DNA from: Pelagophyceae sp. CCMP2097
Taxonomy: Eukaryota > Sar > Pelagophyceae
Direction of reading: 5' to 3'
Assembly (NCBI GenBank): GCA_026770575.1
Contig: MU657223.1
Coordinates: 126,794 to 190,793 of the forward strand
Length of the DNA stretch: 64,000 nt
Every line of letters starts with the position of its first letter. Positions within the stretch are counted from its first letter, which is position 1. Under the pieces are notes generated by a model. It saw only the letters and a list, made by a program, of their open reading frames with translations, made no database searches and was not told where the DNA came from. A program made the translations under genes and the position numbers. Positions 11,924 to 34,995 of the stretch are shown here, in pieces.

Positions 11924-12360
11924 CAGACAGACAGACGGACAGACAAAATTGCGCATGTATTACTTCAATAACGACCTTCGAAAGAAGGGGCCAGGATTTT
12001 ATCAAATCCAAAGACCCCTCTCCGGGGCAACGTTGCTGAAAAAATCGACTGGAGTGAGGTGTGAGGGTTGTAATTTATACCCCGGGGAGACGACAAGACT
12101 CTCTGAGAGCCACGTGCAGATCAAGAGGTCCTGCGCAGGAGCGACTGGAATCGACCCGAAGGGCCTCAACCATGCTTCTCTGCCGGAAAACTCGGGACTC
12201 GTTGCATTCGGGCTTGCACTGGCTGTTTTGTCTCCTCGACGGCTCATTTTCTCGGCGGGTGGCTTTATTTTCGCACGCCGGAGCGGTACGAGGGCCGGCT
12301 AGGCAGTCCAGCACATTGTGGGCTGTAGGAATTCCTATCCTGATAGGATTCCTACAATTG

Positions 12361-12848
12361 TAGACAGTTTCACTTTTTCTAAGAAGCTTTTCAAGCTACT
12401 TTCAAAGCGAGTATTTTCCAGAAAAAACTTGGCAAGTTGCTTGGAAAGTAGGAATTCCTAGCTTTTCCTAGGGTTCAACTTGCCAAGTTCAGCTTTTCAA
12501 CTTGCTTGGAAGTTTTCCAAGTTGCTTGGAAAGCTCGGGAAGAGTTCGTTGGATGAGCGTTGAGTGAGCGTTAGATGAGCGTTAACCCGGCGCGCCGCGG
12601 GCGCGCCACGCGGGCGCGCCGCGCGGAGGGGGCGGGGCGCGGCCTCAGGGGGGCGGGGCGGCGCCGATGGTGCCCGCGCCTCCGTCGAGGCGCGGGCCGG
12701 TCGCGGGGCCGACGTGCCCCGTCCCGCGCGCCATCTCACCTGGGTGGCCGAAGGAAGGCGCCCTTGACGCCGCTTCGCGCTCACGTTAGCGACAAAATAA
12801 ATGTTGAAAAAGTAGCTTGAAAAGCTCCTTGAAAAAGTGAACTGTCTA
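12361..12848. mobile_element. MITE with about 38-bp terminal inverted repeats and TA flanks
   Basis: The left end 12361-12399 and right end 12812-12848 are imperfect reverse complements beginning TAGACAGT and ending ACTGTCTA. If TA is the target duplication, the ends are GACAG...CTGTC, as in TA-inserting elements. The interior has repeated ttgcttggaaag motifs and a strikingly GC-rich core (about 12,580-12,790) unlike the AT-rich ends. No coding capacity. Confidence 0.7.
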
Positions 12849-12896
12849 ATTCCTTCATCGAGTCTGAAGGATCTGAGCGCGCTGGGCGCATCGGCG

Positions 12897-13262
12897 TCAG
12901 AAGGAGATGCGATCCGTGAGTTTTAGTTGAACAAAAGTTCCAGCCACGCCCAAGTTCATATGACCCTCAAACGAGTCGATCGAAAGCAAATTCTCGGACA
13001 GAGTGAGGTGGATATCGATACCGTTAGAATACGCAAGTCGATTCGACTCAATACTTAATTGCGTGCCGCTCGTATCAACACCACGCATTGACAGTGTTCC
13101 ATTTGTAACAGTCAAAGAATTCCCAGATGAGTCCACGCAGGCAAGTGCCCCTGGTTGGACTTCAAATGCCCCTATACCACTCACATCCATGAGTTTAAGT
13201 TGAACAGAAGTTCCAGCCACGCCCAAGTTCATACGACCCTCACGCGAGTCGATCGAAAGCAA
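12897..13262 (-). pseudogene. Fragment of a beta-repeat protein
   Basis: An open minus frame of about 121 codons, without an ATG at its start, encodes two copies of the motif ENLLSID..EG.MNLGVAGT.VQLKL (units about 12917-13035 and 13193-13290). A Ser/Thr/Gly/Asn-rich link of NGTLSMRGVDTSGTQLSIES type joins them. The pattern suggests short beta-strand repeats as in fibre or surface proteins. It sits among mobile elements, has lower GC than host genes, and the repeat continues upstream to about 13,370 beyond an insertion. I read it as a decayed fragment of a mobile-element, viral or surface-protein gene. No family is recognised. Confidence 0.45.
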
Positions 13263-13290
13263 ATTCTCGGACAGAGTAAGGTGAGTATCG

Positions 13291-13344
13291 TTTCCCCACC
13301 CCGCCTCAGCGGGTGGATCAGTATATATTTAGGATAGAGTATCG
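13291..13344 (+). repeat. 54-bp intron-like insertion with 8-bp target duplication
   Basis: Comparing the two units of the adjacent repeat shows a 54-bp insertion in the second. It is flanked by direct copies of gagtatcg (13283-13290 and 13337-13344). Read on the plus strand it begins gtgagtatcg just upstream and ends tatttag, like a short intron. Confidence 0.55.
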
Positions 13345-13437
13345 ACACCGTTGGAATACGCAATTCGGCATAGCACAGTCGGCTTGATTCTTGCTCGTTA
13401 AAGCGTTTTAGGCGACGTTATGCAAATGCGCCAGTTA

Positions 13438-13478
13438 ACTTGAAAAGCTTCTTTGGAAAAAGTGAACTGAGCTGTCTA
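13438..13478. repeat. Solitary copy of the MITE right end
   Basis: The segment matches the right terminal repeat of the 12361-12848 MITE (cttgaaaagctt...aaaaagtgaact...ctgtcta) with small differences. No matching left end is seen nearby. Confidence 0.6.
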
Positions 13479-13600
13479 GGAATCCTAGTACAATTACAGG
13501 AATCCTATTACTATTAGTAAAGGTCATTTAAAGAACCGGCTAGTACTGGGGGACCCAGCCACTTTCCCAAAAGTCCATAAACCCCGGCCAAAAATCGAAG

Positions 13601-14301
13601 TACAGTGCGAATGTGAGAGTAAGATAATGGATTTTATCTAAAGGCAAAGGCGGTCTCTGCCGCCAGTCGCTTATTTTTTAAGAAGGCGAAAGGCGCTGGC
13701 GGGCCGACTTTTTCGTCATCGTCGACCTCCGGGACCAACCGTAGCCCCGCACCCCCCCGGCTGCCGCCGCTGCTACCCGACGCATATGCGATAAACCACG
13801 CTTACGGTCCCTTCTGTGGTCACCCCTTGATGCACGGTGCAGCGAAAGCGTTGTAAGATAATGGCCAAAGGCAACCCGTTTGCTTTTTTCTTCTTAAAAC
13901 TTAAGCGAATCGACAGTGCCTGTCGCTTGCCTTCTTAAAATATAAGATAATCGGCCTTGGGGGCTGTCCTCAGCCGCCCATGGGCTTCGTCGCAGCTGGT
14001 AAAAAAGTCGCTGAATCTCGGGGTTTAGCGAAGATTTTCACGCACGTGGACGACGCTTTCGCTGCACCGTGCATCAAGGGGTGACCACAGAAGGGACCGT
14101 AAGCGTGGTTTATCGCATATGCGTCGGGTAGCAGCGGCGGCAGCCGGGGGGTGCGGGGCTACGGTTGGTCCCGGAGGTCGACGATGACGAAAAAGTCGGC
14201 CCGCCAGCGCCTTTCGCCTTCTTAAAAATAAGCGACTGGCGGCAGAGACCGCCTTTGCCTTTAGATAAAATCCATTATCTTACTCTCACATTCGCACTGT
14301 A
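13601..14301. mobile_element. Foldback element with about 250-bp inverted arms and TA ends
   Basis: Arms 13601-13851 and 14052-14301 are near-perfect reverse complements around a spacer of about 200 bp. The outer ends read TA-CAGTGCGAATG...CATTCGCACTG-TA. CAGTG termini and a TA target are typical of Tc1/mariner-group elements. No transposase is encoded, so it is non-autonomous. The near identity of the arms suggests a recent insertion or strong selection by the fold. Confidence 0.85.
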
Positions 14302-14510
14302 ATTGAGGACCCGAAGGATCCTTGCCGTTTAAACAACGTCAATTTACGGCAAGGGCCCTTTGATTGAAGGATTACCAGGGGCAATTTTGTCTGTCCGTCT
14401 GTCTGTCTGCCTGTCCGTCCACGGGTAAATCCGTGAAGTTCCACCTTTGGGAAGAAAAGGGCCAATTGAAAAGGGCAGCAACTCGGCCGATTCAGCGATT
14501 GGTGGTTGAT

Positions 14511-14606
14511 GCGGTCGCTAAAATTGGGAGTGGAGGTCGAGCAGGAGCCTCATTGGAATCATCGTAGAAGAAGTTTTTGGTCACAGGTTCGAATCTGGTC
14601 GGCCGC
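14511..14606 (+). other. tRNA-like segment with B box (tRNA-derived repeat head)
   Basis: The 5' GCGGTCG can pair with the 3' CGGCCGC over 7 bp (one G-T pair), like an acceptor stem. GGTTCGAATC is an exact B-box/T-loop sequence, but the T stem has a mismatch and I cannot build clean D and anticodon arms. It is followed by an A-rich tract. This fits a tRNA-derived SINE head or a decayed, possibly intron-bearing tRNA better than a working tRNA gene. Confidence 0.4.
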
Positions 14607-14847
14607 AAAAAAAACAAAAAAAGAATTAGCTCGATAAGAAATAAAAAATAAAAATAAAGATAAGGAGGATTTGAAGGTTCGGCGATTAGTTAAATAATTT
14701 TAATTATTAATTTTACGTGGGCATTAGGAATCCTATAATAATAATAATAATAATTTAGGAATCACAGGGCATTGCAATGGGATTTGTCTGTATCCTTCGC
14801 TCGAAGTCGGGTCCTCCGTGTGCCTCCGGCGCACTCTTGTAATACAA
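14545..14847 (+). repeat. Dispersed repeat, copy 1 (tRNA-like head plus A-rich tail)
   Basis: The sequence recurs in reverse complement at 63762-64000. The shared part contains the B box, the A-rich tract, gataaggaggatttgaaggt, and a block through cctccgtgtgcctccggcg. Copy 1 has an extra segment with an (ATA)n run at about 14,726-14,772, between two copies of gggcatt, and a small insertion near 14,802. Confidence 0.85.
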
Positions 14848-15111
14848 GGGGTATCGGCGATGTAACCGGTCTCAAGTGACGCAAAGTCTTGGCTCTCCTA
14901 GGCCGCCCGCGGGCGTGGGCGTGGGCGCTACGGACGCGCGCATCGCGTTGAAATTTCCCCCCGGGGTGTCCGTGAAATGATCAGCCGCGTGGAGGGCGCC
15001 TTGCAAGGGCGCGAATAAGCGTTTCCTCCAATATTATGGACTCGATAAAATCTTTATTTGCCTCCTTACCTTGATTTTGACTTGATTTTGCCTCCTCTAT
15101 CGGGAAGGTTC

Positions 15112-15121
15112 NNNNNNNNNN
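15112..15121. other. Assembly gap of 10 N
   Basis: Ten Ns mark an unresolved or estimated gap inside the repeat island. Structures across it should not be trusted. Confidence 1.
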
Positions 15122-15428
15122 AAATCTCTTGATTTTCACACGAAAGTGCTGGATTTAAATTATTGAGTGACATTTTGGAAATATTGAAAAGTCCATAATT
15201 TTTGAAATATTTCCCGCTTGCAGAAACAGAACAGCGAAACCGAAAGTGGGTTTTCCCGCGAGGTGCAAACCGGGAAGTTGGCTGGGTCCCCCAGTAAGCG
15301 AAGAAAAAAACAGCGGCCCGGCGACGCCGTTGTTTGCGTTTTGACGCTGCCAGGGGGCGCGTCTGGGTCCCCTCCACCCACCCCCAAATCATGGCGTCCG
15401 CGGAGGACCTCTTTGAGAAATTTAGCAT

Positions 15429-16020
15429 ACAAGATGGTTTCGCCAAGAAACTGATTTTGCATTGCGCGTTTTTTTGGCAAAACTAAAGTGGGCATTGGGC
15501 TGAGCTTCCGGCGGCCGCGCACGCACCCCAAGGAAAAGTCCGCCAGAGCTCTACTTTAACCAAAGAGCGTCTTTTGCAAAAGTTACAGCGATCGAAAGAT
15601 ATAGACACCCTTTTTATATAAACTCACACCACATAGTTTCTAAAATAACGGTCACTTTTCTTAAAAAGAGAGAAGAAACGGCCCATTTTTCAAAAATATG
15701 GGTCAACTGTAGCTTCTTGGTGACAGCCCCGGGCATTTTAGGTCAGGTATTTCGGTGGTTGCTCGACGTAGCCTTCTTACACACGGCCGTGCGCGGCCAT
15801 CGGCGGTGGATGAACGAAAATCCGAGGTCTCCTTGGGTGGTAACGGCCCTCGCCAAAGTCGCCAAATCGATTTTCTCAGCCCATAGAAGACATGCCAAAG
15901 TTCATCCGGCACGGCTGGAGGCGTCTCGGCGCGCTGCATGCGACCCCGGTATCTGTAACTCGAAAGACCGTTTCAAATTTGCCCAAAAAATACTTGACTT
16001 TCTTGGCGAAACCATCTTGT
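15429..16020. repeat. Exact 22-bp inverted repeat pair 550 bp apart
   Basis: 15429-15450 and 15999-16020 are exact reverse complements (acaagatggtttcgccaaga core). Between and around them I see no gene. They may be ends of a small element of about 590 bp. Confidence 0.55.
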
Positions 16021-25678: not shown

Positions 25679-25994
25679 CGCGGCGACTTGCCACTTTGTA
25701 ACGCGGCGACTCGCGGCTTTGTACATATTTCCTCGGGGAGCCGCGCCGGGCTAGACCGGGTCCCGCTCTCGCACTCCACCTCCGGCGATGTCCTTCTACC
25801 CCCTTGCCCGAGCTGCCAGTGCCAGTGGGGTGTACCCATTACTCCTTTTCGGCGACGGGTCGCAGTAATGATGATGATTCGCAGAATATTGCAGAATCGC
25901 AACTTGGCAAATGTCCAGAAATTTTTGACTGTGCACCTGCGGCCACCCCGACGTCGCGGGCGAGACCGGCGCTGCGCCCCGGTTTAAGGTCGCG
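25679..25994. other. Intergenic region
   Basis: Short spacer upstream of the large multidomain gene. Nothing recognised. Confidence 0.5.
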
Positions 25995-28900
25995 ATGAGC
26001 GACGCCTCGCTGCGTTTATGGGCGGCTGCGCGCGGCTGGACGGGGTCCATGGCGGATCAACTCGTCGAAGCCTTTTTAGACCTCGATACTTTACGCGTCT
26101 GCTCCCAACACCTCGACGACTGCAAGGAGGCTTTAGGCGAGGTCGGCATGGCGCCGGGCCCGCGCCTGCAAGTCATGCGCGCCATCAAAGAGCTCAGGGA
26201 CGAAGCCGAAACGCCGAAACCAAGCCCCGCCCCCGCGCCTCCGGTCGCGGCAGCCGCGCCGAAACCAAAGGCGGCCGCCGCGCCGCAACCCGATGCGACC
26301 GCGGTCGCCGCGCGCAAAAAAAAGGCGAAGGCGGTCGCGGCTGCAGCGAAGGCGGCCGCAGCCGCCGATGCGTCAAACGCCGCGTTCATGGCCTTCGCGG
26401 CGGCGCACGCCGCCGCACCCGTGGCGCCCGTCGCGCGCGCGCCGGCGCTCGCCCCCGCTCCCGCGCCGCCCGTCGCGCGCGCGCCGGTGACCGCGCCCGC
26501 CCCCGCACCCATCGCGCGGGCCCCCGCGCCCGCCCCCGCGCCCGCGGCGCCCATCGCGCGCGCGCCGGTGCCGCCGGCGGCCGACGCTGTCGTGCGCGTC
26601 GTGCTGGACGTTGCGAACATTGGCCACCGCAAGGAGGGCTCCGCGGACGCGACTCAAGTCCTCTTCAGCTGGCCGCAAGTCTCTGCGGCCTTTGCCTACT
26701 ACGAACTTCAAGGCTGCGAGGTCACGGGCGTGCTTTCGCATCGGACGTGGCGCGTGAACAAGCCGCCTCGCGACTTTGAATACGAGGCGAGCCTCTGCGT
26801 GGCGAATTCCAACGACCGAGAATCGGACAACGACGACCGGTTCATCTTGAACTTTGCGCGCGACCACGACTGCAGTTTCGTCAGCAACGACAACTACCGC
26901 GACTGGGCCGAGCGCCTCCCTACGGAAGACGCCGAGTGGTTGCAGCGCAGCCGGGAAAGGCTCCACGTCAACTTTATTTTTGTGCGGCAACGGGACGGTG
27001 TCCTCTTCACGCCGGACCGGCCGCACCACGCGCCCAAGCAAGCGCCGCCCGAGGACCGCGCCGACGCCTGGGCGCCCGCCGACGACTGGGAGGACGTCGG
27101 CGACTCGGCTCTGGTCTCGGACGCGGAAACGGGCGCGCGGAACTGGCGTCGCGGCGCGCCGCAGCTGCAGTGCCAGCTGCTGCGCTTCGTCGTTTTTGGC
27201 CGCGGCGCGTTTGAGCCGACGACGCTGTACTTTGACGCGCCAAGGTCGACCACTCTTTACGACGCCCTCTCCGCGTTCGTGAGCCGGCAAAACGCGCACG
27301 CGACCGCGACCGCCAAGGCGTTCGCCGCGCTCGCCCGCCCGGGTATGGTCCCGGAGGCGTGCCTCGTCTTCGACGCCGACGGCACGCCCCTCTTCGCCGC
27401 GGCGAGCGCCAACGGGGCCTCGGCCACTTTAGAGGGTTTATGCTTCGAAAGAGCCGAGCTCTTGTACGTGCTCCCGCTCCACACAACCGACGCCGCCTCT
27501 TTAAAATCGGTACCGTCGGCGGGCAACGTGGTACCGTCGGCGGGCAACGTCTACGGGCGCGCGGCAGCGTACACAGGCCACTTCTCCGCGACGGACGCAG
27601 GGTCGCTCGCCGCCGTCGGCGCCGGGGAAGCCGTCTCCGTGGCGGCTCTCTTAGCGACGTTGATGGTCGCCCGAGGCCGCACGACGCCGCAGCAGAAGCG
27701 GCGCCTCGTCTGGCAGGCTTGGGCCTCGACGCGCAACGCGCCGCTCTGCCGCGCTCTGTACGAACTCCTGCGCGAGGGCTCACTGAAGTCGCCCGCCGCT
27801 AAAGCGGCTTTGGTTGCGGGGTTTGTCGACGCTCTCAAGTGCGTCCCCGGCGCCCCGCAGGCCCGCGTCGATGCGCTGCGCGGCGCGCCGGCGCTTTTGG
27901 CAATGTGGCTCCGCAAGGCGCCGTCCGATTCCGTGAACGACGTCTTCGAAAAGATGTCGCTCTGCTGCGCCTCTTCCGTGAAGCCTTACGGCGGCCTGCG
28001 ATTCATCTCGCCCGTGCGCTTGCAAGGGTCGACTGCGACGTACTCCTTCCCCGCCGTCGCGCAAGGTTTCTCGCGCGGTCGGCTGGCGCTCGAAGCGGCG
28101 TCGGCGAGCGGCGCGATTTCGTCCGCGGACGACTCGGGCTTTGGAGACACTTTAAGACCCGAGGACCTGCGGCGCGACGCGTGCGCCGAGCGCGCTTTGG
28201 CGAGGCACGACGGCGACGAGGCTCTACTGCTTACCGCGGCGGCGAAGCGGGTGCTGAGGCAGCCGGTGGCGCGGTTCCAGACAAGTTACCAGGACATGTG
28301 CGCAGATTTCCGAAGGGACGCCGTCAGCGGCGAGACGGTTTTGGGAGTCGTCAGCCCCGGCGACTTGAAGGACCCGGCGGCGCCGCGGCCTGCGCTGGTC
28401 CACGCGCCGGACGCCTCTTTAGCGGTGTGCGAGACGGCGGGCGCGACGCAAGAATTGAAGGGCGACTCGTTCGGCCAAGTTAACGACGTCAGCGTGCACC
28501 TGTCGCTCTACGTCCCCGCCCTGGGCATGGCGCTGACGGTGGACGCGGACGCGCATGCTTTGGGACAGGCGGAGAAGATTCGCTTGGCGTCTGCCCAGGA
28601 GCGCGCCGCGTGCGATTATTGGCTGACAAAGGGGACTAAAGCAGTCGCGCTGGCGACGTGCGTCCTCGTCGACACTTCCACTTCCATGTGCACGCCGCTC
28701 TGGCCGCCCGACGATGCCATTTCCGGTAACTTTGAGGATTATGCTTCAACAGAAGTACGCGTGACCAAGCTGCAATTCAGCGAGCGGGACCCGCAGGCCG
28801 CGGCGCTGGCCGCGCTCCCGCACACCGTGCACGACCGCGTCAGGACGATGAACCCCGTGCGGTGCCGCGAGGACGACAGCCGCGGCTCTCCCGGCGACTT

Positions 28901-31900
28901 TGCCGGTTCCGTATTTGTCTCCTTCACCTCCGTCTCAGCAGCCAAAGAGGCTTTACAGCTCGGCGTCGTCAAGACTGGTGGGTCGCGCGCCAAGCTCGAG
29001 CCGGTCTGGAAGCAGGCTTCGGCGCCGGACAGGAGAAAGTCGCAGACGGCGCATCCGACGCGACTCTGCGCAGCGCAGTGCGGCTTCTCCGCGTTTGCGG
29101 ACCGAGCCATGGTGAGCAGCGCGGCCTCGCGTGCCTTGCTTGACGACGTTGCCGAAGGAAAACGTCAAACTCGACCGCCTCATTTTCATGCTGCGACAAA
29201 GATGTCTTGCTTGACGACGCTGGCGCTAGGCGCCGCAGTCGACGTCGATGGGCTTGGGCCTCATCCGCTTCGACAACGCCGCGACGGTCGTGACGCCCAT
29301 GACGACAGCGCTGCGAGGCTTCCAGCACGACCTCGACACCATCTCGCCGAGCGGCGAGACAGCGCTCTGGGACGCCATCGCGCGACGCGGCGTCCGGGGC
29401 GGCGACGTCCGAGAGGCCGGGCGACGGAGCCTCGCGAGCGATGCAGCCAACGTCGCACGCAGGTGCTGGCCGTATCGAACCTCACCGAGTTTGCTGCTGG
29501 CGAGCGCCTGCTGCAGGCCGGTGCCCCGATCCGCCTCCGGATCGTCGCTCTCACGGACGGTTCCGACACGGCGAGCTCGCAGCGCGCGGCGCACGCGGCG
29601 TTTGCCGCTCTGCAAGCAGGAGTCCAGATCGACGCCATCCTCATCGGCCCCGTCTTCGGCGAGCTGCCCGCGATTGCGAAGCTGACGGGCGGCGCGACGC
29701 ACCGCGCGCGGGATATGGCCGACTTGATGGCAATATGTGAATCTTCCGCCTTCGTCTGCGGCGGGACTTCGTCGATTCCGCTCCTCGGCAAGGCCGCGAC
29801 GTTTGAAGACGTCTCCAAGGCTCTGAAGAGGGAGACGTCGGCGTCGAAGCAGATCCCTCGATGGGCGCCCTTTAAAACGGACGCGAAAAGCGCAGCGCCG
29901 GCTTTGGTCTCGGACGTCGTGCAGCGCGCCGTGTCCGTTGCGACGCCGGCGGCCGTCGTCATCGCGCGCGCGCGGAGGCGCGTCGCCGGCGCCGGCAACG
30001 GCCGCGCGGCGCCGCCGCAGAGGCGAGAACTCCGCATCATGTACGAGCTCTCTCTCGCGCACGAGGCCCTGGCCCACGATTCCGCAGACGTGCGGGTCCT
30101 CGCCGGCGAGGAGCTGACGCCGTGGCGGGTGGTGCTGCGCGGGCCTCGAGACACGCCCTGGGAGGGCGGCACTTTTCAGCTCGCGATCGACTTTGGGCCG
30201 GAATATCCCTTGGAGCCGCCGACTGTCCACTTCCTCACGCCTATTTTGCACCCAAACGTCGACGACGCTTCCGGTCGCGCCTGCCACTCCATCCTCGGGA
30301 CGGCGTATACCTCAGAGACGATGGTGAGGATTCTGTGCGGTTTGTGCGGCCCCGAAGTTGTGCGCCGCTGAGATGACCGGCGTAGGCTTTGGACGTCATT
30401 CTGGCCATCAAGTCCATGCTCTACGCGCCCGAGCCGAGCGACGCTTTAAACCAGCAGGTGGCCATGCGCATGCGCGACGATTCCGCGTTCAGAGCAGAGG
30501 TCCAGCGGCACGTGTTGAAACACGCAAGCCGCAGCCTCGATTCCATCGTCGCGGGAGTGGAAGACGGCGACGACGAAGCAAGCGAAAGTGAAGACGAGGC
30601 GGACGACCGCTGCTGCGCTCTGACGCAGCGCAGGATGGCGCCCGGCGTGGACTTTGTCGAGACGAAGTACGGCGTCTTGTACGAACGGGCCGCTCTTGAA
30701 GCGTTCTTCTTGGCTGGCGGTTTGAAGTACGACCCGAAAGCTTCCGAGGGCGCGGTGGACGCTTTGATGCTTTTAAGAGACGAGGGAGACTACTGGTCCG
30801 TCTCACAACGGGCGGGGCAAGGCTCGCAGTTCTTTTTAGCTGCGGCGGCAGACCTGCGGGAGCCCGACGACGAAGACGACGACGACGACGACGACTCCAA
30901 GCCCGAATCGGCGGACGACGACGCCTGCTGCTTCAACTGCGGCCGAGGCGTATCCTTTGCCCTGGTGACGTGCCAGAATTGCGCCCGGGCCTCGTACTGC
31001 TCGTACACCTGCCGCAAGGATCACAGGGAGGCCCACGCGCACTTTTGCTTCGCGCCGCCGGCGCCAGCGCGCGCCATCGAAGACGACGGCGCTTTCGCAG
31101 TGGCCCTGCTGCGCTGCTGCGCCGCCGAGGCCTGCATCTTGAACGCCGGCTTTGAGGCCGCCGCGAAGCTGGCCAAGGAGGCCATCGAGGCCATTTGCGC
31201 CGTCTTGCCCCGAGAGTCGTTCGTGGACGGCGACGCGTTCAACATCCCGGCGGAAATCCGGCGCTTGTGGTGCCGCGCCCACGTGGCCGCGTTTACGGCG
31301 TGCGACGCCGCCAAGCTGAAAGACGAGGCGCACTCGCACAGAGCCATGCTCCAAATGCTCGGCGCGGAAACGCCGCCGCCGCTGCTGCCGCCGCCAACGC
31401 CGACGCCGCAGGCGCGGCCGCCACCGCCGCCTTTCGACGGCCCTTGTTGCAGGAGCGCGCAGGCCAAGGCGGCCTTGGTGCCCGCTTTGATCTCGTGGTC
31501 CTACTTCATCAAGGCGGGCCCCGGCTTCTCCATATTGCTCCCGGGGACGGAAACGCGCGTCCAATTCGTCGTGCCGGCGGACTACGACGTCTGGATGCCG
31601 ACCAGACTCGCCCTCGTCTGCAACTCGGCCAACGGGAAATGCGTCCGCTGCGCGGCCGTGCAGCTGACGAACGCGCAGCGGAAAGAGGACCGAGCCAAGC
31701 GCCTATCAGAGGTGCGGCCGTGGCACGAGCACAACGATCAGTACCACCTCGCCCCGAGCGACGACGCCGCCGGCGAATTGATCCGCTTCGAGCATCCGTT
31801 CAGGCCGGGCGTCGTCTGTTCTGCGGCGGTCCCGGCAGGCTTCAACTTTCGGAAACGGGGCTTGCAGGTCGACCCCTTCAACGTGCCAAAGCTCTCCGTG

Positions 31901-32020
31901 CGCAGACTGGTGGGCCACGAGTCGAAGCACATCGATGACGCTTGCACGGCCCCGACGTACAACGAGTTTATGACATTGACAAGCGGCGGCCCCCAGAGGC
32001 GCCGCGATTACGGATACTAA
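25995..32020 (+). CDS. NYN ribonuclease - RRM-like - VWA - E2 ubiquitin-conjugating - U-box-like - MYND multidomain protein
   Basis: The frame from ATG 25995 is open for about 1,050 codons, then joins through three introns to a final exon 30386-32020. Order of parts: SAM-like helices (MSDASLRLWAAARGWTG); Ala/Pro linker; a Zc3h12-type NYN RNase at about 26,600-26,990 with RVVLDVANIGHR, DNDDRFILNFA and SFVSNDNYRDWAERL, keeping the acidic residues; a long unassigned region; the VWA start CVLVDTSTSM at 28,670; an RRM-like stretch with GSVFVSFTSVSAAKEAL; the rest of the VWA with GLGLIRFDNAATVVTP and RIVALTDGSD; an E2 fold at 30,015-30,560 with WEGGTFQLAIDFGPEYP, ILHPNVDDASGRACHSIL (HPN and active Cys) and ALDVILAIKSMLYAPEPSDA; U-box-like CALTQRRMAPGVDFVETKY; MYND CCFNCGRGVSF with CQNCARASYCSYTCRKDH; and an unassigned C-terminus. 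The E2 fold is split by the intron 30324-30385, which ties the two long ORFs into one gene. Confidence 0.8.
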
Positions 32021-32251: not shown

Positions 32252-34995
32252 TCATCTTCCTTTCAAGTTGGGCCTTTGCCAATAACGCTCGTCTTCCTTG
32301 GGGCTTTGCGGCGCGGCCCTTGGACCCGAGACCGTCTCGTGCTCGAGGAGGTCTGCGACGATTGCCTCGACGAGGGCGCGGTGTTTTTCCAGCGTCTCTG
32401 CGCAACGCTTATGCGCCTCGTCAATCAACAGCTTCGCCTCTTCGTCAATCAGCGACGCGATCCGCGGCGACGCCGTGCGAGGGCCGCCCATGAACTCCTG
32501 GTCCTTCGTCGCGCTCTCCCTGCGGCGTGAGGCTCCCAAAGACGACGAGGACGGAGCGAAAGGCGCAACCAGACTACACGACTCGGACGGAGCGAAACGC
32601 GCCAGCGAACCGACTCACCAGCTCGTGACGGAGAGCTCGCGGCGCGTCTTGTCCGAGCAAAAGGCCCACTGGGCAACCTAGCGTCGTGGCTCCGACGGTT
32701 GATGGGCTTCGAACCACCCGCGCTGCGCCGGAGGCGGGCTTCCCCTGGCGATCATCGAGCCTGTGATACCGCTCACGACTCCCTGGCGTCCGTCGAGCCT
32801 CTGATGCCGCTCACGACTCCGTCGCCACCGTACGGTCCGCGTCTCTCAACGGGCATCCGGACGCGGGAGTGACCATGCGGTGCGCAAGCGTGCGCACGTG
32901 CTGCAAATCGTCAGACGCGCCCGTCGTCACGTCGTCGGCGCCAAAGGCCAGCTCCTCGGCGCCTGGCGCGGCACCGTCGACGGCCGGCGGCGCGTGTCTG
33001 GAAGTGTTCGCTCATGCCACGGGTTTCACCGACGTCTATCTCACCCCCGATGCCACCGTTGTCTCCGACGTCTATCTCGCCCCCAATGCCGACTCTGTCT
33101 GCTGCTGTGACGGTCCTGGTTTTCCGACCCGACGCGGCGGCGCGCAGCGGCCGCCGAGCGCGACGGCGAGCTGGTCTTTGAGGTAGTGGAGCGAGTGCAG
33201 GCCCACCTGTGGGCGCTTTCGCGGCCAACGAGCGAGGCTCGGGACGCACGTCGTCGTCGACGTCCATGGGCGTGAAGAGCGTCGCGCCGGCGATGCCCGA
33301 GATGCGCGGCACGATGGACACCTTGGCCACCGTGTCGTAGCCGGGCCTAAGGCGCGGTTGCAAGCGCGGCGAATGGTGCCAGCAAAGGTCGGGGCTTGCG
33401 GTTGCACCCCCCGCAGTCACGGGCCGCACGCGAGCAGCGCCATGGCGGCGTGGCCGGCCTCGTGCCAGGCGACGACCTCGCGGCGCTTCACATTCGCGGC
33501 ACTTGACACCCTTTGCAAGCCGAGCGTCAGCCGGTCGAGCGCGGCTTCCACGTGGTCCGCGGAGATGCTGTCCTTGTTTCCGCGGACGGCGTAGATGGCT
33601 GCCTCGTTGAGGAGATTTTCCAACATGGCCCCGGAGAAGCCAGTCGTCCGCGCAGAAATTGCCGCAAGGTCCACGTCCGGCCCCAGAGCCTTGCCGCGCG
33701 CGTGCACCTACAACGCCGTGCGGCACCGCAGCAAGCAACGAAAATGGCCTCGAAAATGGGACGCGCCTCGAGAATGGCCTCTCTGCCGATGCGGTCCGGG
33801 AGCGGGATGGGGATGCGCCGGTCGAAGCGCCCCGGCCGCAGCAGCGCCGGGTCGAGGACGTCGGCGCGGTTCGTGGCCGCGATGACGATGACGCCGGTGT
33901 TGCCGTGGAAGCCGTCGAGCTCTGAAAGAATCTGGTTCAGCGTCTGCTCGCGTTCGTCGTTCGCCCCCATGAAGCCACCAGAGGCGGCTCTCTTCCGGCC
34001 AATGGCATCAATCTCGTCGATGAAGATGATGCAGGGCGCGGAGCGCATGGCGTCGGCGAACATGCTGCGGATGCGGGAAGCCCCGACGCCGACAAACATT
34101 TCGATGAACTCGGAACCCGACGCCGCGATGAACGGCACGCCCGCCTCGCCCGCCACCGCCCGCGCCAGCAGCGTCTTGCCCGTGCCTATTCGATTACCGT
34201 CTCCCCCGAACGGTCTCTCCCGAAGCGATTCGACGCACCGGGCGGCCCTTCGAGGATGACGCCGCGCGGGCAGACTGCCCCGAGCTTGTTAAACTTCTGA
34301 GGGTGTTTCAGAAACTCGACCACCTCTTGCAGCTCGCGCTTCGACTCGTCGCACCCCGCGATGACGCTAAAATCGATGCCCGTGACGGGCTCGTACTGGA
34401 CCTTGGCGCGAGACTTAAGCAGGTTCATAATGTCGCCGGGCCCGCGGCCTTTCGTCTCGCCGCTGTCAAAGTTGCCCCCTTTGCCGTCCTTGCCCTTCAA
34501 GTCTCTTGGGTCCTCCTCGGGGGCGCGGCCGAGTTTCGAGAAGATGTAAGCCGCGCCGCCGAAGATTGTTCCGGTGAAGAGCAGGTCCGCCGCGGCGTCC
34601 AAAGCTCTGTAAGGCGGGTTCGCCGACTGGACCTCAAACACCACAGAATGGTCGCGCAACACGCGGATCGTGTTCGACACCTCGTTTGGCAATAAAGCGA
34701 CGACGTGCGCGCCCGGCGAAGGGGAAATGTTGTCCAAAGCGACGAGCTTCAAAGAGTCGGCCGCAATGTAGACGCGGCCCACGGCCTTTCGGCCCACCTC
34801 CTCGTAGAATCGCGAGAGCGACCACTCCGCGTCCTTCTTGTCCTCCTCGTCGGCGGCAAAGGCGGAGAGCGGCAGGCCCGCGGCCCCCGCGACGAGGGGG
34901 ACGTAGTACTTCTTCAGCGCCGCGCGCCGAGGCACCAAGCGCGGCACCACCGCCGCCGCGCACAGGAGGGTAGAGGCGAAGAGCGAGACGAACAT
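32252..34995 (-). CDS. FTSH: FtsH AAA+ zinc metalloprotease, likely plastid-targeted
   Basis: Multi-exon minus-strand gene. ATG 34995 opens a hydrophobic leader ([18 protein letters not shown]), then a basic stretch and [11 protein letters not shown], like a signal plus transit peptide for thylakoid FtsH. Then come the FtsH extracytosolic domain, a membrane segment ([16 protein letters not shown]) and the AAA module: [20 protein letters not shown]; Walker [18 protein letters not shown], split by a 53-nt intron; [16 protein letters not shown] (Walker B); the second region of homology ending [11 protein letters not shown]; the zinc site [15 protein letters not shown]; and [20 protein letters not shown]. 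The last exon ends [20 protein letters not shown] and the stop at 32252. An alternative last exon near 32,200-32,150 is possible. Intron 33766-33708 has a GC donor. Thylakoid FtsH degrades damaged photosystem II proteins; the role is by homology. Confidence 0.93.
32963..33148 (-). repeat. FtsH intron carrying a tandem duplication
   Basis: The intron lies between the exons encoding [11 protein letters not shown] and [13 protein letters not shown]. It holds two imperfect units of about 35 bp, each with ggggGcGAGATAGACGTCGG-type core (about 33,030-33,100). Its donor may be GC (33148) or a GT 21 bases downstream; both keep frame. Confidence 0.6.

Follow-up and report, generated by a model that had tools for sequence, protein, structure and literature searches.

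A single gene of the pelagophyte Pelagophyceae sp. CCMP2097 joins an NYN ribonuclease domain to an E2 ubiquitin-conjugating domain, and the presence of the NYN, E2, U-box-like, VWA, and MYND parts in one chain is well supported by comparison with its predicted homologues. The gene occupies positions 25995 to 32020 (+ strand) of the window, by which we mean the whole stretch of 64,000 nucleotides from contig MU657223.1 that was analyzed, and our model consists of four exons encoding 1,920 aa. One gene, the order of its domains, and the conserved catalytic residues are what is seen in the sequence. We propose, at roughly even odds (about 0.5), that the product would be a ribonucleoprotein-surveillance enzyme that cuts RNA, ubiquitinates the proteins on it, and clears both together.

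The + strand contains two long frames, 25929 to 30371 and 30386 to 32020, both with motifs quoted in an earlier sequence-only reading of this DNA, which had linked them by one intron at 30324 to 30385. That intron (intron 3; + strand, GT-AG, 62 bases) was the top of 62 stop-free GT/GC-AG joins tried, and its removal raises the UQ_con score from 78.1 to 111.5 bits. It is not the only one: the gene has three introns, two more being inside the VWA domain. Between 29112 and 29462 the frame read earlier differs from the conserved frame, and two further introns were placed there. Intron 1 (29112 to 29229, + strand, GT-AG, 118 bases) is part of the top-ranked combination among 1,428 free of stops that were scored on the homologue P0001, with 29238 as a possible alternative end. 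Intron 2 (29380 to 29462, + strand, GC-AG, 83 bases) was likewise chosen by scoring against P0001, and an alternative GT start at 29392 was nearly equal (584 versus 579, after a penalty of 8 that we set ourselves for the GC start). P0003, the public model of the same gene, breaks at intron 2 too, its blocks ending at 29384 and resuming at 29468. The exons are accordingly 25995-29111, 29230-29379, 29463-30323, and 30386-32020 (+ strand), with the stop codon at 32018-32020 and a start codon common to P0003 and to the start of P0005. GC at the third codon position was 0.82 to 0.94 in the exons (n = 4), 0.54 to 0.78 in the introns read the same way, and 0.68 to 0.69 in the flanks; this contrast, together with the layout conserved in homologues, speaks against a chance origin.

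Three protein searches gave P0001, P0002, P0003, P0004, and P0005. The claim that one gene joins an NYN RNase to an E2 is borne out by P0005, in which a single open frame of 1,992 aa, within a 6,183-base record, encodes the complete series in the order N-terminal helices, DCD, NYN, ubiquitin-like, central region, VWA, E2, U-box-like, MYND, and C-terminal parts; about 200 bases are left beyond the frame, judged from the lengths alone. P0001 (1,590 aa) starts within the NYN domain and continues to the C-terminal end, while in P0002 (Aureococcus anophagefferens JL722_11770, 1,270 aa) the NYN is represented by its start and the VWA by some of its parts, the E2 and the U-box-like segment are present, and MYND is absent. 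Because P0001, P0002, and P0005 all continue into the E2 within one predicted protein, a single chain is favored. P0005 likely comes from a pelagophyte, since its alignment with P0002 from Aureococcus shows 79% identity. Between the window and P0005, identity is 51% (71/138) for NYN, 55% (80/146) for E2, 58% for the main VWA part, 46% for MYND, 36% for the U-box-like segment, and 35% for an RRM-like insert. The N-terminal domain (31%), the C-terminal region (26%), and the linker preceding the E2 (25%) are lower. NYN and E2 are thus conserved to about the same degree. A homologue search with residues 195 to 860 of P0003 returned nothing but P0003 itself, a scan of viral contigs with P0005 gave 600 pattern stretches and no relatives, and an NCBIfam search gave nothing useful. 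P0004, a JGI protein of 1,166 aa with a Ufd2P_core (E4 type) and a C-terminal E2, is an E2-E3 fusion unrelated to this gene.

HMM searches of the translated frames matched both the NYN and the E2 domain. The NYN domain (RNase_Zc3h12a, PF11977) lies at 26589 to 27023 (+ strand, residues 199 to 343) and was matched by Pfam at 5.9e-8, with 33 bits on the raw frame against a curated cut-off of 23. All four acidic positions of the Regnase type that the sequence-only reading had reported are present, namely, D205 (26607-26609), D280 and D281 (26832-26837), and D299 (26889-26891), all on the + strand; we assigned the names of these positions from Regnase-1, to which we take them to correspond. They are kept in P0005, where the motifs read DVAN, NDDR, and TDD (DVAN, NDDR, and SND in the window). 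A profile built from the window and P0005 found 12 PDB chains at E ≤ 1, comprising two of KHNYN, eight of ZC3H12A/B/C, and two of PRORP2, and in it KHNYN lines up with the DDR and with the final Asp. By itself, the P0005 domain falls under the Pfam cut-off (0.16, 12.1 bits), and Pfam gave no NYN at E ≤ 1 in P0001 or P0002, in both of which the domain is incomplete. No zf-CCCH finger was matched at E ≤ 1 in either window frame or at E ≤ 5 in P0005.

The E2 domain (UQ_con) lies at 30036 to 30541 (+ strand, residues 1281 to 1428) and is split by intron 3. Pfam matched it at 6.4e-22 (78.1 bits) on the raw frame and at 3.2e-32 after splicing, when the match covers positions 19 to 139 of the 140 in the profile, in keeping with the earlier description of a whole E2 that spans an intron and has an HPN motif (30249-30257, + strand) and an active-site cysteine (Cys1363; 30282-30284, + strand). 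The domain of P0005 scored 1.4e-26, the HPN and the cysteine are kept in all four sequences compared (window, P0001, P0002, and P0005), and 310 PDB sequences were matched at E ≤ 1e-5. After the cysteine stands an unusual HSILGTAY, versus LDIL in many E2s of the same genome. UBE2O has SH3-like domains; these had no Pfam match in the window frames or in P0005 and are present in L017, the UBE2O homologue of this genome. Derivation from UBE2O was rejected, the present E2 scoring 48 bits against L017 and 80 bits against the best E2 of its own genome.

The VWA domain is interrupted by a second fold. Its first strand lies at 28653 to 28748 (+ strand) and carries DTSTS (D893) as its metal-site motif, and the DxSxS pattern is present in 4/4 sequences (window, P0001, P0002, and P0005). 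An RRM-like domain follows at 28749 to 29018 (+ strand, residues about 919 to 1008), and the rest of the VWA, spliced, lies at 29052 to 29756 (+ strand), with the GETALWDA and LTDG motifs and 58% identity to P0005 across 168 residues. The motifs DTSTS, GETALWDA, and LTDGSD, which we take to be the DxSxS, Thr, and Asp of a MIDAS, are kept in all four sequences. A VWA domain had been called before, and the domain itself is supported after splicing (VWA_2 1.4e-5), but the frame used for that call runs through two introns; a straight read-through was rejected, and removing the introns restores the VWA match. The spliced score is 26.1 bits for the window, just below the cut-off of 27, compared with 31.3 bits for P0001 and 23.3 bits for P0005; a solved-structure search with the spliced VWA gave two chains, at 0.084 to 0.1. 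The stretch GSVFVSFTSVSAAKEAL, quoted among the VWA motifs in the sequence-only reading, belongs instead to the inserted RRM-like sequence, which that reading missed. The predicted fold of the insert matches RRM; profile matches are weak, there is no Pfam RRM match, and inspection by eye shows neither the aromatic residue of RNP2 nor one of those of RNP1. The possibility that this stretch is an intron or an inserted fragment of another gene was rejected: the sequence continues the open frame and is also conserved in P0001, in P0005, and, in part, in P0002. No other copy of its DNA was found in the genome.

Downstream of the E2, the U-box-like segment occupies 30602 to 30787 (+ strand, residues 1449 to 1510) and is 36% identical to P0005 and 22% to P0001. 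A U-box-like element around CALTQRRM had been proposed, and this assignment, which is weak, stands in part: a profile from four sequences listed 14 PDB chains at E ≤ 5 with E3 ligases first (0.0014 to 0.0049), but Pfam U-box on the segment of P0005 reached 0.0091 and 16.6 bits, under the cut-off of 21.4. None was listed on the segment of P0001. Several of the 14 chains are presumably U-box proteins, one being named only "Core." A second U-box seen by eye at 27954-28250 had no support, with two unrelated PDB chains, and is not claimed. The MYND zinc finger (30926 to 31054, + strand, residues 1557 to 1599), noticed before from its cysteines, was recovered by zf-MYND at 1.5e-6 on the raw frame of the window, with 28.6 bits versus a cut-off of 22.7; the same profile stays under the cut-off in P0001 (18.7 bits) and P0005 (19.4 bits). 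A fold search with the structure model of exon 4 gave no match at E ≤ 0.001, the top row being a MYND at 0.41.

The remaining regions are less clearly assigned, and the structure models were poor overall (mean pLDDT 40.8 and 44.7). The chain likely begins with a helical N-terminal domain (25995 to 26210, + strand, residues 1 to 72), which is predicted as four helices with pLDDT of about 58 to 72. It is SAM-like by eye only; no Pfam SAM match was obtained on the window or the P0005 piece, and SAM was rejected. P0005 has a DCD (development and cell death) domain before the NYN (residues 134 to 221, 1.9e-9, 37.8 bits), and P0002 has one under the cut-off at 167 to 226 (22.4 bits); at this place the window has a Pro/Ala-rich linker. 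A ubiquitin-like fold, not noticed in the sequence-only reading, is likely, on weaker evidence, at 27162 to 27488 (+ strand, residues 390 to 498). Also inside exon 1 is a perfect 21-base tandem duplication at 27509-27550, which is in frame (VPSAGN twice). The conserved central region (27552 to 28250, + strand, residues 520 to 752) consists of a helical part followed by a segment of unassigned fold, 50% and 57% identical to P0005, respectively; a profile search with the second part gave only two unrelated PDB chains at E 1.4 to 1.5. The C-terminal region (31094 to 32017, + strand, residues 1613 to 1920) is of unassigned fold and 26 to 30% identical to P0005 and P0001.

Searches of the alga's own 66.2-Mb genome placed PF11977 at three loci, namely, the gene described here, L009 (an NYN gene of plain type), and L011 (a gene with NYN and KH), and gave 24 matches to UQ_con, including L017 with its SH3-like domains. 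The C-terminal 544 aa used as a query had one match in the genome, the gene itself. In L011, NYN and KH lie in adjoining minus-strand frames (637-2118), possibly a KHNYN-like gene. L008 (1501-1734; G000:C262:23692-23976) encodes an E2-like sequence with GRVAHSLL and Ala at the expected active Cys, probably an inactive E2 variant. Elsewhere in the window, positions 12001-16000 have a GC of 0.48 to 0.56 versus about 0.67 around them and no frame of more than 143 aa wholly inside, and are perhaps noncoding or foreign. ARAGORN called a tRNA-Leu (CAA) at 33330-33425 (+ strand), which may be a false call, and an AAA ATPase frame (33527-34285, minus strand) adjoins it.

The reading of this protein as one that would cut RNA and tag protein rests on the catalytic residues, which are conserved, and on an animal system in which an NYN RNase cooperates with an E3 and an RNA binder. 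There, KHNYN (NYN), TRIM25 (E3), and ZAP (the RNA binder) operate in a single complex, and a ZAP-NYN protein engineered as a fusion is active (PMC11685948). The same source describes multimerization as important and the E3 activity of TRIM25 as dispensable in the ZAP system, which calls for caution about a coupled reading (PMC11685948). We hypothesize that the RRM-like insert, the VWA, and the MYND would bring the protein to a target ribonucleoprotein, whose RNA the NYN domain would cleave. Charged by the E1 of the cell, and with the U-box helping in cis, the E2 would ubiquitinate proteins on that RNA, or its own chain, and the RNA and its bound proteins would thereby be removed together. That both activities exist, that transfer is in cis, that the targets are ribonucleoproteins, and that the role is surveillance or antiviral is what we infer from the sequence. 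A stronger form, in which a single-chain machine would recognize the ribonucleoprotein through the RRM nested in the VWA, cut the RNA with its NYN domain, and ubiquitinate the bound proteins with its own E2 and U-box, making RNA decay and the removal of protein a single coupled act, is offered tentatively and seems to us rather doubtful.

The main rival reading is self-ubiquitination, in which the E2 and U-box would mainly modify their own polypeptide and auto-ubiquitination would control how much of a dangerous RNase is present or how active it is. A cis E2 adjoining a U-box may well favor self-modification. NYN proteins are known to be regulated by ubiquitin: domains that bind ubiquitin or NEDD8 occur in KHNYN and N4BP1, both of which have been considered as substrates of ubiquitination (PMC6681339). 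However, the VWA with an intact metal site, the MYND, and the RRM-like insert are also kept, which is beyond what self-control needs, and we consider this reading unlikely, if still a serious one. Improbable, in our estimate, is a scaffold in which one of the two enzymes, NYN or E2, is no longer catalytic and has a binding role instead: the NYN scores poorly in homologues, the residues after the E2 cysteine are unusual, and inactive E2-like proteins such as L008 exist in the same genome, but the four NYN acids are present in the window and P0005, and the HPN and Cys are present in 4/4 sequences.

Very improbable is a split into two neighbors, with NYN and VWA encoded by a gene that stops near 29740 and E2 and MYND by another, given that P0001, P0002, and P0005 each reach the E2 in a single predicted protein. 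Separate genes, the outcome that the sequence-only reading had set against a fusion, are implied by the public model P0003 (M885DRAFT_272681, Pelagophyceae sp. CCMP2097, 1,134 aa; window 25995-29740), which ends before the E2. Its residues 1 to 636 and 638 to 888 match the window exactly, but it leaves the conserved frame at about 28728, residues 889 to 1134 are in frames other than the conserved ones, and 24 residues kept by homologues are dropped. By this comparison, the public annotation evidently hides the NYN-E2 fusion.

A chain uniting an NYN RNase with an E2 and a U-box was not met among the titles and abstract openings listed in searches of open-access papers, and the available portions of two surveys of the ubiquitin system hold no NYN-E2 case (PMC11354881, PMC4327156). 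At stake is whether NYN RNases and E3 ligases, where they come together, couple RNA cleavage mechanically to ubiquitination, and with both catalytic sites in one natural protein, coupling would be directly testable by mutating either site. The gene also has a VWA with an RRM-like fold set inside it, and the model given here corrects a public one that hides the E2. Like UBE2O-type E2/E3 hybrids, the protein is very long and combines an E2 with ligase-like parts of its own, but the SH3-like domains of UBE2O are not matched here. It resembles the giant OST-HTH proteins of Aureococcus, proposed RNP scaffolds with several RNA-binding and ubiquitin E3 domains, in being a large pelagophyte chain with putative RNA-binding and E3-type domains, whereas those have an OST-HTH core with E3 and ubiquitin-like domains and, in the available text, no mention of an E2 or NYN RNase (PMC2848206). 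N4BP1 and KHNYN, with CoCUN/CUBAN domains, bind ubiquitin or NEDD8, and the accessible part of that source mentions no E2 or U-box, whereas the algal protein carries an E2 (PMC6681339). With Regnase-1/MCPIP1, to whose single chain a review attributes both RNase and deubiquitinase activity, it shares the NYN RNase; unlike that protein, which has a CCCH finger and removes ubiquitin, it is without a CCCH match and has a ubiquitin-adding E2 (PMC7719135). As in ZAP-TRIM25-KHNYN, an NYN RNase would work with an E3 and an RNA binder; unlike that system as described in the available portion, with three proteins, a RING-type E3, and no E2, the alga has its parts in one chain, with an E2 (PMC11685948). 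Whether a one-chain machine of this kind would be the all-in-one counterpart of the multiprotein NYN-plus-E3 antiviral or surveillance complexes of animals we put forward only as a possibility, and one with the odds against it. Taken together, the parts and the theme are known, and the combination adds the ubiquitin-conjugating enzyme itself to the RNase chain.
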